NCBI GenBank assembly: GCA_007050995.1
Contig: VJOU01000008.1
Span: 62,001-126,000 of the forward strand
Origin: Glycocaulis profundi
GTDB lineage: Bacteria > Pseudomonadota > Alphaproteobacteria > Caulobacterales > Maricaulaceae
DNA: 64,000 bases
Direction of reading: 5' to 3'
This document shows positions 33,247 through 38,940 of the stretch, piece after piece. Each line of letters opens with the position of its first letter. Positions within the stretch are counted from its first letter, which is position 1. The notes below the pieces were generated by a model. It was not told the DNA's origin and made no database searches. It was given only the letters and a program-made list of their open reading frames with translations. Both the position numbers and the translations under genes were made by a program.

Positions 33247-33915
33247 ATGATGATCCGCCCGTCCGCGCTCGCCATCGCCGCTTCGCTCCTCGCTCTGTCC
33301 GCCTGCGGGCCTGACGACGCGGACGCGCCGGTGGAAGTTCGCGGCGAGCTGGCTTTCGAGGCCGACGGGCTGGACACGGACGTGTTCGCGGTGGTCGAGC
33401 TGGCCGACGCCTCCGACCCCGAGGCGCCCCAGGCCGGGTTCGCCCGGATCGAGATCGCGGGCGCGGACAGCCCCGTCGCCTTCTCCTTCCAGGCCGACCC
33501 CGCGCAGATCGACCCCGACGCGTCCTACGCGGTGACCGCGGCGGCCTTTTCAGGCAGCGAGCCGGTGCTGCTGAGCGATCCCGTGCCCGTGGACGTCTCT
33601 CAACGCCCCATCGAGGCGGGCACGGTCGCGCTCGCGCCCCTCATCATAGAAGACGGGCTGGAGGGCGGCGGGCAGGAAGGCCCCGCCGACGCCGTCTATC
33701 AGTGCGGCGACATCCCCGTGATCGTGGAGTTTGACGGGCAGGGCGGCGCCACCCTGTATCATGCCGAGGACGAATTCGCCCTGAGGCGCACTGAAGAGAG
33801 CGGGGCGCGGTACGCGCTGGAAGACGACCCCTCCACCTTCCTTGAAGACCGCGGCGGCGAGGCCGTCATCGAGGTCGGCGGCGAGTCCCTGGGCCAGTGC
33901 CTGCGCTTCTTCTGA
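33247..33915 (+). CDS. Lipoprotein with YbaY-like and MliC-like domains
   Basis: 222 residues with a lipobox LSAC at about residue 20. Residues 30-130 resemble the YbaY/YscW beta-sandwich ([35 protein letters not shown]). Residues 155-222 resemble MliC, the lysozyme-inhibitor lipoprotein fold: [12 protein letters not shown], then SGARYAL and a final [14 protein letters not shown] cysteine. Such a protein could shield peptidoglycan from lysozyme at the outer membrane. The domain calls are by eye. The start is ATG 33247 (adjacent ATG at 33250). It lies divergent to mutM and upstream of ubiE. Confidence 0.75.
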
Positions 33916-34003
33916 GAGGGCCGCTGAGCGGCGTGCAGTCAAATCGCCGCGCCCGGCGCCGCGCCGCTTCCAGCCCGGCGCGCGCGCGTCTATGGTCCGC
34001 GCC

Positions 34004-34795
34004 ATGACCGGCACACGCTCCGATACCCGCCCAGAATCCCGCTTCGAGACGACCTCCTTCGGTTTCCGCGAGGTGGCCCGCGAAGACAAGCAGGGGCTTG
34101 TGCGCGACGTGTTCGACCGCTCCGCGCGGCGCTACGACCTGATGAACGATCTGATGAGCCTCGGCATCCACCGGGTCTGGAAAGACATCGTCATCACCCG
34201 CGCCAGTCCCCGGCCCGGAGAGCGTCTGATCGACGTGGCGGGCGGCACGGGCGATCTGGCCCGCGCCTTCCTCGACCGGGCGAAGACGCGCAGCCCCCGC
34301 GGGGGCGGCGCGCCCGCCGAAGCGGTCGTGGCCGACATCAACTATGAGATGATGCGCGCGGGCCGCAGACGCGGCGAGGCTCAGGGGCTGGACTGGGTGT
34401 GCGCGAACGCCGAACACCTGCCGTTCGCCGACGCCAGCGCGGACTGCGTCATCATCGGGTTCGGCATCCGCAACGTCACCGACCGCGCCGCGGCCCTGTC
34501 GGAGATGCGCCGGGTGCTCAAGCCGGGCGGGCGTTTCCTGTGCCTGGAGTTCTCCCGTCCCGTGAACCGGGCCATCGGGCGCGTCTATGACGCGTGGAGC
34601 TTCAACGCGATCCCCGAGCTGGGCCGCCTGATCGCGAAGGACCGCGACAGCTATCAGTATCTGGTGGAATCCATCCGCCGCTTCCCTCATCAGGAGGCCT
34701 TCGCCGCCGAGATGGAGGCCGCGGGCTTTTCGAACGTGAAGGTCCAGAACCTGTCGGGCGGCATCGCCGCGCTGCACACGGGCTGGACGCTGTGA
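34004..34795 (+). CDS. ubiE: Ubiquinone/menaquinone biosynthesis C-methyltransferase
   Basis: 263 residues, SAM-dependent. It C-methylates the ring in ubiquinone synthesis. Motif I VAGGTGDLARAF and the UbiE signatures YDLMNDLMSLGIHRVWK and FGIRNVTDR are conserved, and the end is GGIAALHTGWTL. I used ATG 34004; ATG 33992 is four codons earlier. In Caulobacter-type genomes mutM, ubiE, ubiB and coaBC lie in this order, as here. A small ORF follows at 34807. Confidence 0.96.
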   Translation: MTGTRSDTRPESRFETTSFGFREVAREDKQGLVRDVFDRSARRYDLMNDLMSLGIHRVWKDIVITRASPRPGERLIDVAGGTGDLARAFLDRAKTRSPRGGGAPAEAVVADINYEMMRAGRRRGEAQGLDWVCANAEHLPFADASADCVIIGFGIRNVTDRAAALSEMRRVLKPGGRFLCLEFSRPVNRAIGRVYDAWSFNAIPELGRLIAKDRDSYQYLVESIRRFPHQEAFAAEMEAAGFSNVKVQNLSGGIAALHTGWTL

Positions 34796-34806
34796 AGGGG
34801 GTCGCC

Positions 34807-34944
34807 ATGACCGGCTACGAACGCAGACTCTGGACGGCGCTCGGCGTGGTGGCGGTCCTGTTCGTGTGCGGCGCGGCCGCTTACCAGGCGGGCTATGGCG
34901 AAGGCCGTGAGCGCGCGCTCGCCGTCAACGTCTCCGCGCCCTGA
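34807..34944 (+). CDS. 45-residue single-helix membrane ORF between ubiE and ubiB
   Basis: The frame starts at ATG 34807, 11 bp after the ubiE stop, with AAGGGGG at ideal distance. The product has one hydrophobic helix (LWTALGVVAVLFVCGAAAYQAG, residues 8-29) and a short charged tail. It fits between ubiE and ubiB with no overlap, so co-expression in the ubiquinone operon is likely. No family was recognised. Small size and lack of comparison keep confidence moderate. Confidence 0.6.
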   Translation: MTGYERRLWTALGVVAVLFVCGAAAYQAGYGEGRERALAVNVSAP

Positions 34945-34955
34945 ATCTGCCAGCC

Positions 34956-36497
34956 ATGTTCAGGACACTCGCCTCCCTCGCCCGACTGGCGCGCGCCGCA
35001 TGGACGCTGGCGCGCCATGACGCGATCTTTCCGGCCGAATACCAGGCGGCCTTTCCCGCCTCGGCGCGGACGATGGGCCGGCTGGCGCGGCTGATCGCGA
35101 TCCGGGACCGGGCGAAAAATCCCGGCGAGCGGCTGGCCAACGCGCTGGAAAAGCTCGGCCCCTCCTATGTGAAGTTCGGACAGGTTCTGGCCACCCGCGC
35201 GGACGTGATCGGCGCGGATTTCGCCCGCGGCCTCGCCCGCCTGCAGGACAAGATGGCGCCCTTTCCCGACGCGCTGGCGCGCAAAACGCTGGAAGCGGAG
35301 CTGGGCGCGCCGGTGGAGGCGCATTTCTCCAGCTTCGGCGGGCCGGTGGCCGCCGCCTCCATCGCCCAGGTCCACCGCGCGACCACGCTGGACGGGCGCG
35401 AGGTGGCGGTGAAGATCCTGCGCCCGGACATCGACCGGCGCATCGCCAGGGACATCGACGCCCTGCGGCTCGGCGCGAAGATGGCCGAGGGCCTGTTCCC
35501 CACCTCGCGGCGGATGGAGCCCAAGGCCTTCGTGGAGACGGTGGCCCGCTCGCTCACGCTGGAGCTCGACCTGCGGCTGGAGGCGGCGTCCGCCAGCGAG
35601 CTGACCGAGGCGGCGGTGGCGGCGGAGAATTTCTTCATCCCCGAGATCGACTGGGTGCGCACCACACGCCGGGTGATGACCTCCCAGTGGATCGACGCGA
35701 TCCCGCTGAGCGACATGGCCGCCATCGACGCGGCGGGCATCGACAAGGTCAAGCTGGCCGGGGACCTGACCGACGCCTTCCTGACCACCGCGCTGGAACG
35801 CGGCGTGTTCCACGCCGACATGCATGCGGGCAATCTGTTCGTGGACAGCGACGGCAAGCTGTGGGCGGTCGATTTCGGCATCATGGGCCGGCTGGAAGCC
35901 GCCGAGCGGCGCTATCTGGCCGTCATCCTGCATGGCTTCCTGACCCGCGATTACGACCGCGCCGCCGAGGCGCATTTCGAGGCGGGCTATGTGCCGGGCC
36001 TTCATTCGAAGGCCGATTTCGCCAGCGCCCTGCGCGCGGTGGCCGAGCCCATCTTCGGCAAGACCGCCGATCAGGTGCCCATGAGCCGGGTCCTGCTGCA
36101 GCTGTTCGAGATCACCGACCTGTTCGACATGCGCCTGCAGCCCCAGCTCATACTGCTGCAGAAGACCATGGTGCAGGCCGAGGGCGTGTGCCGCTCGCTC
36201 TCGCCCCAGCACAACATGTGGAAGGCCGCCGCCCCCGCCGTCGAGCGCTTCATGCGCCGCGAGCTGGGACCGGAAGGCATCGCGCGCGACGTGCTGGAAG
36301 ACCTGGCCCGCCTGCGCGACGCGGTGCGCAACCTGCCCCGGACGCTGGACAATCTCGAAGCCGCCGCCGTCGCGATCCAGACCCGCGAGCTGGAGGGGGA
36401 CCGCCCCCGCCGCGCCCCCGGCGTGTGGACCGGCATCGCGCTGGTCCTGATCGCCGCCGCGGCGGGCGCTGGGGCGGCGTGGATGGTCGCGGGTTGA
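34956..36497 (+). CDS. ubiB: UbiB-type atypical kinase/ATPase for ubiquinone biosynthesis
   Basis: 513 residues, ABC1/ADCK family, needed for coenzyme Q synthesis. The KxGQ motif (KFGQVLATRAD), the Ala-rich loop AAASIAQVH, the catalytic lysine in VAVKIL and the HADMHAGNLFVD and DFGIMG motifs are all present. The C-terminal helix (IALVLIAAAAGAGAAWMV) anchors it in the inner membrane. The stop at 36495-36497 overlaps the -35 box of the toxin-antitoxin promoter that follows. The original order ubiB - coaBC is interrupted by that TA cassette. Confidence 0.96.
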   Translation: MFRTLASLARLARAAWTLARHDAIFPAEYQAAFPASARTMGRLARLIAIRDRAKNPGERLANALEKLGPSYVKFGQVLATRADVIGADFARGLARLQDKMAPFPDALARKTLEAELGAPVEAHFSSFGGPVAAASIAQVHRATTLDGREVAVKILRPDIDRRIARDIDALRLGAKMAEGLFPTSRRMEPKAFVETVARSLTLELDLRLEAASASELTEAAVAAENFFIPEIDWVRTTRRVMTSQWIDAIPLSDMAAIDAAGIDKVKLAGDLTDAFLTTALERGVFHADMHAGNLFVDSDGKLWAVDFGIMGRLEAAERRYLAVILHGFLTRDYDRAAEAHFEAGYVPGLHSKADFASALRAVAEPIFGKTADQVPMSRVLLQLFEITDLFDMRLQPQLILLQKTMVQAEGVCRSLSPQHNMWKAAAPAVERFMRRELGPEGIARDVLEDLARLRDAVRNLPRTLDNLEAAAVAIQTRELEGDRPRRAPGVWTGIALVLIAAAAGAGAAWMVAG

Positions 36498-36522
36498 TTG
36501 TAAGCACGTGAGTGCTTATATT
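36494..36522 (+). promoter_or_regulatory. Toxin-antitoxin promoter, sigma-70 type
   Basis: TTGATT at 36494-36499 and TATATT at 36517-36522, with a 17-bp spacer. The palindrome at 36501-36518 fills the spacer and touches the -10. The start of transcription would fall near 36529, just before the GGAGG site at 36531-36535. Confidence 0.68.
36501..36518. promoter_or_regulatory. Palindromic operator of the TA module
   Basis: TAAGCAC (36501-36507) and GTGCTTA (36512-36518) form a perfect 7-bp inverted repeat around GTGA. Its position between the -35 and -10 boxes suits autorepression by the AbrB-like antitoxin, a common TA feature. Binding is inferred, not shown. Confidence 0.6.
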
Positions 36523-36540
36523 GGCGGCCTGGAGGATGCC

Positions 36541-36792
36541 ATGCGCCACGATGACGCGAAGACATTCATGGAGAAGAAGCGCCTTCGCCGGACTGGCAAC
36601 AGCACGGGCGTGACCCTCACCCGCGGGGCCCTCGACGCTGCCGGTTTCTCCGAGGATGAAGCCGTCACGGTGACCGCCACCCGCGGCAAGGTGGTCATCA
36701 CTCCGGAGGGCGGCGCTTACGACCGCACCGTCGAAGCGGGCCGGGCTGCGCTTGAGCAGTATCGCTACGCGTTCGAAAAGCTGGGCGAGTGA
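36541..36792 (+). CDS. AbrB/MazE-like antitoxin
   Basis: 83 residues from ATG 36541, which has GGAGG five bases upstream; a GTG at 36508 lies inside the operator and is not used. Residues 12-55 form the SpoVT-AbrB swapped-hairpin DNA-binding domain (KKRLRRTGNSTGVTLTRGAL, then VTVTATRGKVVITP). The C-terminal helix (TVEAGRAALEQYRYAFEKL) probably covers the toxin. It ends with a GTGA overlap onto the toxin gene. The antitoxin would bind its own promoter palindrome and neutralise Doc. Confidence 0.85.
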   Translation: MRHDDAKTFMEKKRLRRTGNSTGVTLTRGALDAAGFSEDEAVTVTATRGKVVITPEGGAYDRTVEAGRAALEQYRYAFEKLGE

Positions 36793-37193
36793 GCGTCAGG
36801 CTGCCCGACTATGACGGCTTCCGTGATGCGGTCGCCCTGATTCTCGAAGACAGCACCGGAACGCGCTTCGCGTATCGCGACGAAGCCCTGATGCAGTCCG
36901 CTTTCGCGCGCCCGTCAAATCTGCTGGCCTATGACCCTCAAGCGGACGCCTTTGCCGCAGCGGCCTCGATGGCCTACGGCGTGGGTCGCAATCACGCTCT
37001 GGTGGACGGGAACAAGCGGGCGGCCGCAGCCGCGCTGATGATCACCTTGATGCTCAATGGCTGGCGGCTCGACGCCTCTCAGCGCTTGGTCATCGACACC
37101 TTCACGGCGCTGGCCGAGGGGGCTCTGGATGAGGCCGGTCTGGCGGAATGGGCGCGGGCCAATGCTGTATCCGACGCGCGGTTCACCCCTTAG
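36789..37193 (+). CDS. Doc/Fic family toxin (death-on-curing)
   Basis: 134 residues, GTG start coupled to the antitoxin stop. The Fic-core motif is HALVDGNKR at residues 69-77, the Doc-like ANKR form rather than the Fic GNGR form, preceded by a helix with SMAYGVGRN. Doc phosphorylates EF-Tu and stops translation; canonical Doc reads HxFxxANKR, so Leu and Gly at positions 3 and 6 are variants. The C-terminal half is helical, with a TFTALAEG turn. Downstream, coaC starts 69 bp later. Confidence 0.85.
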   Translation: MSVRLPDYDGFRDAVALILEDSTGTRFAYRDEALMQSAFARPSNLLAYDPQADAFAAAASMAYGVGRNHALVDGNKRAAAAALMITLMLNGWRLDASQRLVIDTFTALAEGALDEAGLAEWARANAVSDARFTP

Positions 37194-37262
37194 CGCCCGG
37201 TCTCGACCTGCCCCATATGACCCGCTAGGACTTCGTCCCGTGACAGCGCAAGGAACGCGCCC

Positions 37263-37802
37263 ATGACCGGCAAACGCATTCTCCTCATCATCGGCGGCGG
37301 CATCGCGGCCTATAAATCGCTCGAGCTGATCCGCGAGCTCAAGCGGCGCTCGGTCGGCACGCGGGCGATCCTGACCGAGGCGGGCAAGAAGTTCGTCACG
37401 CCCATGAGCGTGGCCGCGCTGTCTGGCGAAAAGGTTCATGACGACCTGTTCTCGCTGACCGACGAGGTGGAGATGGGCCATATCGAGCTGTCGCGCTCGG
37501 CGGACCTCGTGGTGGTCGCGCCCGCCACCGCAGACCTGATGGCGCGGCACGCCCACGGCATCTGCGACGACCTCGCCACCACCGCCCTGCTCGCCACCGA
37601 CAAGCCGGTCCTGATGGCGCCCGCCATGAACGTGCGCATGTGGCAGCACCCGGCGACCCAGGCCAATCTGGAGCTCCTCAGATCGCGCGGGGTCAGCTTC
37701 GTCGATCCCGATGATGGCGAGATGGCGTGCGGGGAGTTCGGACCCGGACGGCTGGCCGAGCCGGTCCGCATCGCGGACGCGATTGAGGCCGCGCTGACGT
37801 GA
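37263..37802 (+). CDS. coaC: Phosphopantothenoylcysteine decarboxylase domain as a separate protein
   Basis: 179 residues equal to the N-terminal half of CoaBC/Dfp. It decarboxylates phosphopantothenoylcysteine using FMN. Seen: GGGIAAYKS, active-site His in EMGHIELSRSADL, PAMNVRMW and the substrate clamp ACGEFGPGRLAEP. In most bacteria this is fused to CoaB in a protein of about 400 residues. Here it ends at TGA 37800-37802, overlapping the GTG of coaB in another frame. RBS AAGGA lies nine bases upstream of ATG 37263. Confidence 0.93.
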   Translation: MTGKRILLIIGGGIAAYKSLELIRELKRRSVGTRAILTEAGKKFVTPMSVAALSGEKVHDDLFSLTDEVEMGHIELSRSADLVVVAPATADLMARHAHGICDDLATTALLATDKPVLMAPAMNVRMWQHPATQANLELLRSRGVSFVDPDDGEMACGEFGPGRLAEPVRIADAIEAALT

Positions 37803-38443
37803 GGGGCCGCCGCGTCATCGTCACCTCTGGGCCGACCATCGAGCCCATCGACCCGGTGCGCTTCCTGTCCAACCGCTCCTCGGGGCGGCAGGGCCACGCC
37901 ATCGCGGCCGCCTTCGCCGCATTGGGCGCCGACGTGACGCTGGTCTCCGGCCCCGTGGCCATTCCCGATCCCGAGAGCGTGACGACCATCCATGTGGAGA
38001 CGGCGCTGGAGATGCTGGAGGCGGTGACCGCCGCCCTGCCCGCGGACGTGTTCGTGGGCGTGGCCGCGGTCGCCGACTGGCGGCCCGCCGAGGCCGCAGC
38101 GCAGAAGCTGAAAGGCGAGAAGGCGGCGATGGCCTCCCTGACGCTGACCGAGAACCCCGACATCCTGAAGACCGTGGCCAAGCTGGACCAGGGCCGCCCC
38201 GCGCTGGTGATCGGCTTCGCCGCCGAGACCCATGACGTGGAGCGCCACGCCCGGGAGAAGCTGGCGCGCAAAGGCTGCGACTGGATCGTGGCCAATGACG
38301 TGTCGGGCGACGCCATGGGCGGGGCTGACAATGCCGCCATGCTGATCGGACCGGACCGCGCCGAGCGCTGGCCGCGCGCGCCCAAGGCGGAGATCGCCCG
38401 GCGGCTGGCCGAGGCGGCGGACTTGGCGCTGGCCCGGTCCTGA
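37799..38443 (+). CDS. coaB: Phosphopantothenate-cysteine ligase domain as a separate protein
   Basis: 214 residues equal to the C-terminal half of CoaBC. It joins cysteine to phosphopantothenate with CTP. Seen: VTSGPTIEPIDPVRFLSNRSSGRQG, AAVADWRP and the catalytic lysine in KLKGEK. The GTG start overlaps the coaC stop (GTGA), in a frame shifted by -1 relative to coaC, so both proteins are probably made by coupled translation. The fused-protein linker of about ten residues is missing. A sequencing frameshift cannot be excluded but the neat stop-start overlap argues against it. Confidence 0.92.
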   Translation: MRGRRVIVTSGPTIEPIDPVRFLSNRSSGRQGHAIAAAFAALGADVTLVSGPVAIPDPESVTTIHVETALEMLEAVTAALPADVFVGVAAVADWRPAEAAAQKLKGEKAAMASLTLTENPDILKTVAKLDQGRPALVIGFAAETHDVERHAREKLARKGCDWIVANDVSGDAMGGADNAAMLIGPDRAERWPRAPKAEIARRLAEAADLALARS

Positions 38444-38490
38444 GGCTAGGCTCCCGGGCGTTGTTTCAAACCTTCCAAGGGAGCCTTGCA

Positions 38491-38940
38491 ATGAAAGCTG
38501 TTCTCGCCGCCGCCGGAGCGGCCCTGTTCGCCGCCGGCGCCGCCCAGGCCCAGTGCTACGCCGCTTTCGCCGAGGAGGGCCGCGCGCCTGAACTGGTCGA
38601 GGGCTACAGCCTGAGCGAGACCGCCGCCGCGCCGGGCCCCATCGCCCGCCCGCCCGTGCCCGAGGACGCCGCCGCCCTTCTGTGCGAGCGCGAGACGGTC
38701 GTGCCCGACGCGAACGACTTCAAGATCCTCCACCACGGCCTGCCGCTCTACATCCAGGACGACGACACGCTCGTGGCGCTGGGGTTCTCCGAGGGTCAGT
38801 ACACGGTCACCGTGCCGCAAGGGGCCATCAACGATGACGAGCGCGAGGCCATCTTCGACGCGCTGCGCGGCTTCAACGACGGCGAAGCGGAGCTGGCCCG
38901 CTGGATGGAAGAGAATCCCGACGCCGCGCCTCAGCGCTGA
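38491..38940 (+). CDS. Small secreted protein of unknown function
   Basis: 149 residues from ATG 38491 with AAGGGAG upstream. The signal peptide cleaves near AAQAQC (residue 21), leaving a mature acidic protein with two cysteines (CYAAF and LLCERE), possibly a disulphide. No recognised domain. The end (ARWMEENPDAAPQR) is charged. It lies between coaB and dut in the same direction, with 47 bp and 64 bp gaps. Confidence 0.75.
   Translation: MKAVLAAAGAALFAAGAAQAQCYAAFAEEGRAPELVEGYSLSETAAAPGPIARPPVPEDAAALLCERETVVPDANDFKILHHGLPLYIQDDDTLVALGFSEGQYTVTVPQGAINDDEREAIFDALRGFNDGEAELARWMEENPDAAPQR

Follow-up and report, generated by a model that had tools for sequence, protein, structure and literature searches.

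Organization of the locus

We analysed a 64,000-nucleotide stretch of contig VJOU01000008.1 from Glycocaulis profundi, hereafter the window, in which a cassette of two short overlapping genes lies between ubiB and coaC, preceded by a promoter-like region that holds a palindrome. The features, in order of position, are as follows.

34956-36497, + strand: ubiB, upstream neighbour (NCBIfam TIGR01982 UbiB, 529.1 bits, cut-off 487.55)
36494-36522, + strand: sigma-70-like promoter TTGATT-17-TATATT (consensus scan)
36501-36518, no strand: operator-like palindrome TAAGCAC-GTGA-GTGCTTA (read from the sequence, arms invariant in relatives)
36531-36535, + strand: ribosome-binding site GGAGG, 5 bases ahead of the ATG (read from the sequence)
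36541-36792, + strand: AbrB/MazE-type antitoxin (TasA-like), 83 aa, GNS motif (profile matches)
36789-36792, + strand: GTGA shared by the antitoxin stop and the toxin start (sequence and open reading frames)
36789-37193, + strand: Doc toxin (TasB-like), 134 aa, motif H69-ALVDG-NKR77 (NCBIfam, Pfam, predicted fold)
37263-37802, + strand: coaC, downstream neighbour, 69 bases past the toxin stop (TIGR00521 coaBC positions 2-178 of 392, 195.2 bits)
37799-38443, + strand: coaB, overlapping coaC by GTGA (TIGR00521 positions 184-389 of 392, 208 bits)

The promoter hexamers TTGATT (36494-36499) and TATATT (36517-36522) are separated by a 17-base spacer, and both sequence and scan confirm the promoter as it had been initially annotated; its -35 hexamer overlaps the ubiB stop codon (36495-36497). 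The palindrome is perfect over its 7+7 arms, as had been stated, but does not quite fill the spacer: it covers 16 of the 17 bases and extends over the first two bases of the -10 hexamer. In a simple consensus scan of positions 33800-38600, the cassette promoter was the sole promoter-like site on either strand (1 found versus 0.3 expected in shuffled sequences), and a terminator-like site at 36478-36491 remained at chance level (1 found versus 0.8 expected). The -10 element reads TATAT in 12 of the 14 cassettes known at this site, the window included.

The antitoxin frame opens with an ATG at 36541 and closes with the stop codon at 36790-36792, and the toxin frame starts with a GTG at 36789 and ends at 37193. 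The description of an AbrB-like antitoxin and a Doc gene overlapping by GTGA between ubiB and coaC thus stands, on sequence, open reading frames and family matches. The 13 relatives with a cassette here show an ATGA overlap at the same place as the GTGA of the window.

CoaC and CoaB are encoded by separate genes in the window (37263-38443), themselves overlapping by GTGA. Most bacteria have one fused coaBC. The coaC frame spans about 180-270 codons in the window's genus and several related genera (g1, g7, g12-g15) and about 400-450 codons in most others, with few exceptions; given these short frames, the split looks fixed in a clade.

An AbrB/MazE-type antitoxin

The best NCBIfam match of the antitoxin is doc_partner (TIGR02609), aligned over positions 2-72 of 74 with 26.4 bits, below the cut-off of 55.9. 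Three antitoxins of relatives reached 33.1, 49.4 and 30.7 bits against the same model, and these proteins are hence related to it but fall outside its curated boundary. A profile built from 25 related antitoxins retrieved the Doc partner of Enterococcus faecalis, chain 9vzc_B, with an E-value of 2.3e-8, followed by MazE and other AbrB-family chains (E 0.0026-0.004); the window antitoxin on its own matched the E. faecalis structures weakly (E 0.13-0.24), significance being reached by the profile only. In an hhalign comparison, AbrB-type antitoxins that accompany Doc elsewhere were matched with a probability of 98.3%. The predicted fold (mean pLDDT 81.4) ranked mostly MazE and VapB at the top of a Foldseek search, with weak matches (best E 0.061, none under 0.001). 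Pfam returned a sub-threshold match to SymE, a protein described as homologous to MazE (PMC1891008). The Phd family was absent among the Pfam and NCBIfam matches up to E 0.1, and in place of the Phd/YefM-type antitoxin of Phd-Doc sensu stricto the gene thus encodes a protein with AbrB/MazE matches.

Residues GNS 19-21 and L81 are invariant in all 25 aligned antitoxins, 11 of which had been chosen for holding GNS. For the relatives, the first fitting in-frame ATG was taken as the antitoxin start, so that some N-termini are probably too long; these entered both the antitoxin alignment and its structure model, and the 11 further rows were cut nine residues before GNS. In E. faecalis, a K8 R10 N14 triple mutant was reported to have lost DNA binding (PMC13034048), and in the alignment with 9vyb these residues correspond to R14, R16 and N20 of the window protein.

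A Doc toxin with a common motif variant

As judged from family score and predicted fold, the second protein is a Doc toxin. It scored 45.0 bits against NCBIfam DOC_P1 (cut-off 38.65), which places it in the Doc family as is TasB, and 37.2 bits against Pfam Fic (cut-off 24). A match to the Doc-like toxin family phrog_577 of PHROGs (E 3.4e-16) shows no more than that Doc is also found in phages. The AlphaFold2 model, computed from an alignment of 24 rows, has a mean pLDDT of 94.9. Foldseek returned five matches to it with E below 0.001, each of them a chain of P1 Doc, with TM-scores (query) of 0.78-0.81, the best being 3dd7 at 0.81.

The motif HALVDGNKR had been read as departing from HxFxxANKR at two positions. 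The motif is present, but the consensus published in two papers, HxFx(D/N)(A/G)NKR (one of them PMC13034048), allows either A or G, leaving a single change, of F to L. Of the 13 relatives with a cassette here, 5 share the L of the window and 8 have F. Elsewhere, L occupies the position in 76 of 93 Doc loci, a share that may be inflated: 80 of the 96 loci collected are those listed out of 476 relatives found with six seed peptides, one of which contained that L. Three of the 96 loci gave no motif. An unusual toxin motif was therefore rejected, the consensus admitting G and L being frequent at the F position. The core residues H, D, G, N, K and R are invariant in all 24 aligned toxins. The title of structure 3kh2 names a P1 Doc F68S variant, which suggests that the F position may matter for toxicity.

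Two side observations concern Doc-related genes elsewhere. A second Fic-domain gene (C332:32175-32492, within a 404-codon frame; L001) lies in the same genome, outside the window and roughly 66 kb upstream along its contig. Many Doc relatives, mostly from actinobacteria (L035-L112), follow another type of short open reading frame (MAMTLRL... or MAGLNLRF...), possibly encoding ribbon-helix-helix antitoxins; the frames come from a mechanical list, and many of the 83 upstream frames look spurious, so that this survey contributes no more than its motif counts and 11 loci in which a GNS antitoxin was recognised.

Comparison with known AbrB/MazE-Doc and Phd-Doc systems

The initial annotation presented the AbrB-type partner of Doc as a mixed pairing. 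The pairing itself is real but is no oddity: it has been in print since 2006, is modelled in NCBIfam as doc_partner and has been solved structurally in E. faecalis, and we rejected any claim of a mixed or novel combination on these grounds. Fico and Mahillon (2006, PMC1626090) described TasA-TasB of Bacillus thuringiensis pGI1 as a composite mazE-doc system, with 55 homologous pairs in many phyla. As in the window, a MazE-type antitoxin with GNS precedes a Doc protein with H(x)5NKR; the 55 pairs are mostly chromosomal, and stop and start overlap in almost all of them. The window antitoxin shares with TasA the GNS motif, a conserved C-terminus, the position directly upstream and the stop/start overlap. 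The TasB motif continues as (x)8F(x)3N, of which the window toxin keeps the N but has T for F. TasB toxicity was deduced from cloning, in which only mutated toxin genes were recovered. In the same study, the antitoxin failed to rescue E. coli from the toxin, which counts against reading the present pair as a toxin-antitoxin module.

In the E. faecalis 'Phd'-Doc complex (PDB 9vzc, 9vyb, 9vx7), the antitoxin has an AbrB/MazE-like N-terminal half that binds a single palindrome near the TATA box and a C-terminal part whose helix lies on Doc (PMC13034048). Its operator is a perfect 10-bp palindrome, unlike the 7+7 arms of the window. The P1 Phd-Doc system (3k33, 3kh2, 3dd7) resembles the window pair in Doc fold and motif position, with TM-scores by query of 0.78-0.81, but differs in the DNA-binding fold of the antitoxin (PMC13034048) and in having, as described for P1, two operator palindromes between the -10 element and the phd start codon.

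The ubiB-coaC junction in relatives

Among 137 genomes of the taxonomic family, 59 gave a Doc-like match and 127 a coaC match, leaving 10 without the latter. The cassette stands beside coaC in 14 of the 127, namely all 6 genomes of the window's genus and 8 of the 15 of its sister genus (G083-G097). By coordinates, a Doc gene directly beside coaC is absent from all of the remaining 113 with such a match. Upstream DNA was read at 50 of the 127 loci, a sample made of the 30 best coaC matches and 20 chosen ones rather than a random draw, and for the remaining 77 the lack of Doc beside coaC rests on the comparison of coordinates. These 50 loci comprise 14 with the cassette, 18 in which ubiB and coaC are direct neighbours (5-132 bases apart), 13 with other DNA or genes in between and 5 without ubiB beside coaC. 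The expected absence of the cassette from many relatives is thereby borne out, and such direct junctions suggest that the cassette was either inserted into an older ubiB-coaC junction or repeatedly lost. On a ubiB+coaC tree of 30 genomes, in which four rows are under half filled, 5 of the 27 internal branches stay open and G097 is long-branched, cassette presence requires at least four changes whose direction the tree does not give.

The junction seems to accept insertions, to go by its sequence in relatives. In genus g12 (L132, L134, L139, L148, L150, L151), a different frame of about 180-190 codons lies between ubiB and coaC, and at L136, L138, L143, L145, L147 and L149 the interval is occupied by a frame on the opposite strand, about 136-152 codons long, whose product resembles a small membrane protein.

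A recent arrival from a plasmid or a phage was also considered. A tblastn search of plasmids gave it no support: each of the 33 records returned had less than 60% identity, and in no record did a single place cover 80% of the toxin. For phages, PHROGs gave the Doc-like family noted above. By title, no paper from a literature search dealt with a toxin-antitoxin pair at the ubiB-coaBC locus.

Two allele families and a hybrid at one site

The cassettes divide into family a (nine genomes including the window), family b (G009, G010, G011 and G092) and a hybrid, G097; both families occur in both genera. The window toxin shares 54-58% identity with family a and 37-39% with family b, and hence stands well apart from the rest of its own family, which counts against the interpretation proposed below. 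On the ubiB+coaC tree, the states a, b and hybrid require at least four changes, and starred branches place G008, which carries a family a cassette, among family b genomes. Between G008 and G010, DNA identity is 90% for ubiB, 87% for the 60 bases immediately preceding the palindrome, 54% for the cassette and 91% for coaC, with the break located behind the palindrome. Such a pattern would be expected if the pair had been replaced while the palindrome itself stayed where it was.

The antitoxin of G097 combines an N-terminal half with 63-82% identity to family a and 37-41% to family b with a C-terminal half for which the values are 14-27% and 59-82%, respectively. Its toxin is 40-45% identical to family a and 68-69% to family b, and the hybrid thus supports a C-terminal half of the antitoxin that goes with the toxin. 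Antitoxins are described as modular in general (PMC1626090), and a search of the literature by title found nothing on an antitoxin domain exchange in this case.

An operator-like palindrome

By itself, a palindrome of this kind is nothing unusual. The window contains 105 perfect ones with arms of at least 7 bases and a spacer of at most 8, or about 0.08 per 47-base promoter region; the cassette pattern with up to three mismatches is expected 0.34 times in the window and was found once, exactly, at the cassette. The arms TAAGCAC and GTGCTTA are identical in 14 of 14 cassettes around a 4-base centre that exists in 12 versions. In 398 genomes of the order, a sample without G090, whose palindrome was seen at the locus itself, the full pattern occurs in 13, once in each and always just upstream of the cassette antitoxin, while a reversed control pattern is present in 6. 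Even when the arms are shortened by one base and spacers of 2-7 bases are allowed, the pattern has one place in its own genome. In 11 of the 13 cassettes for which the ubiB end is available, ubiB stops at the TAA of the left arm; at the locus of G090 (L129), which ends at a contig end, the stop could not be placed. With arms conserved around varied centres and a pattern confined to the cassette throughout the order sample, the palindrome is very probably more than a chance repeat, and it can be regarded as operator-like and as a putative antitoxin site.

Alternatively, the palindrome could serve an unrelated regulator or be a repeat arisen by chance, and would then be left unbound by the antitoxin. 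Families a and b carry identical arms although their DNA-binding halves differ considerably (37-41% between the a-like half of G097 and family b), which departs from strict co-evolution of protein and operator, and other AbrB-Doc loci of the taxonomic family carry different arms. These same loci also weaken that explanation: among the 11 AbrB-Doc loci elsewhere that have a GNS antitoxin, 5 (L018-L021 and L023 of the family) bear palindromes of their own, of the GTTATAAC type, before the antitoxin. The confinement of the pattern to one cassette site per genome (all 13 matches among the 398 genomes) and the binding of one palindrome near the promoter by the E. faecalis antitoxin half (PMC13034048) likewise speak for a site read by the antitoxin, and we regard an unrelated or fortuitous palindrome as very improbable. 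The GTTATAAC arms show that those of the cassette are not common to all AbrB-Doc modules, and palindromes of this type would represent a second class of operator for such modules.

Relation of the cassette to coaC-coaB

The toxin stop overlaps the coaC start as ATGA in 4 of the 14 cassettes, which are the four of family b; the gap between toxin and coaC is 44-69 bases in the nine cassettes of family a and 81 in the hybrid. In family b, the left arm of the palindrome also supplies the ubiB stop, and with both junctions thus closed only the cassette promoter region is left intergenic. The arrangement of the sequence makes it likely that coaC and coaB are co-transcribed from the cassette promoter. 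Both genes are essential.

This proximity opens an alternative reading, in which the module has been domesticated, its toxin having little or no toxicity and the pair being kept mainly as a self-regulated promoter and regulator of coaC-coaB. A precedent exists in the pneumococcal tvrAT, a chromosomal pair of a TIGR02609 antitoxin and a Doc-like toxin beside other genes: an experiment found no evidence of toxin-antitoxin function, and the pair is reported to suppress transcription of the neighbouring recombinase gene (PMC6265443). This result also counts against a simple toxin-antitoxin reading of the present cassette. tvrAT differs, in turn, in sitting in a recombining restriction locus (PMC6265443). 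Loss of toxicity would also agree with the L at the F position of the motif in the window and 5 of 13 relatives, and a regulatory role with the sole promoter-like site lying ahead of the cassette and with the ATGA overlaps of family b. Against this, L is common in other Doc proteins, within the limits given above for the seed peptides, the motif core is invariant in every aligned toxin, and coaC directly follows ubiB without any cassette in 18 of the 50 loci read. In seven chosen pairs of relatives, the antitoxin gave dN/dS values of 0.01-0.15, the toxin 0.06-0.40 and coaC 0.06-0.11, as computed by the counting method of Nei and Gojobori with dS high in some pairs (up to 1.26); such low values point to purifying selection on antitoxin and toxin alike and to cassette genes maintained as proteins. 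We therefore consider a domesticated, largely non-toxic pair unlikely.

Proposed function and significance

Judged by its sequence and its relatives, the cassette probably represents a TasAB-like (AbrB/MazE-Doc) type II toxin-antitoxin module on the chromosome, present as one allele at a fixed site. The sub-threshold doc_partner score of the antitoxin, its weak Foldseek matches and the change of F to L in the toxin motif count against this. In such a module, the AbrB-fold N-terminal half of the antitoxin would dimerise, bind the single promoter palindrome and repress its own operon, as conservation and the solved E. faecalis relative suggest, while its C-terminal helices would bind and neutralise Doc, as suggested by the same relative and by the natural hybrid. 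To judge from its family, Doc set free would slow translation, and the most likely route is phosphorylation of EF-Tu, as with P1 Doc. Trees and DNA identities suggest more than one replacement of the antitoxin-toxin pair, behind a palindrome that would have kept its position together with the flanking ubiB and coaC.

More tentatively, the ubiB-coaC junction may be a docking site at which pairs or antitoxin halves are exchanged behind a fixed operator, the self-repressed promoter being thereby captured by coaC-coaB; we see this as a possibility with rather more against it than for it. If it were so, loss of the antitoxin under stress would raise the toxin along with CoA synthesis, and a clean loss of the cassette would be impossible.

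As a toxin-antitoxin pair the module is ordinary; its value is comparative, and its putative operator footprint is unusually clear. One site at which the same operator-like palindrome precedes two divergent families and a hybrid provides a ready test of which half of the antitoxin reads the DNA and which the toxin, and also of whether such a module can take control of how a housekeeping operon is transcribed. Of most interest to specialists should be the swapping of pairs at a single site, together with the hybrid and the position next to coaBC.
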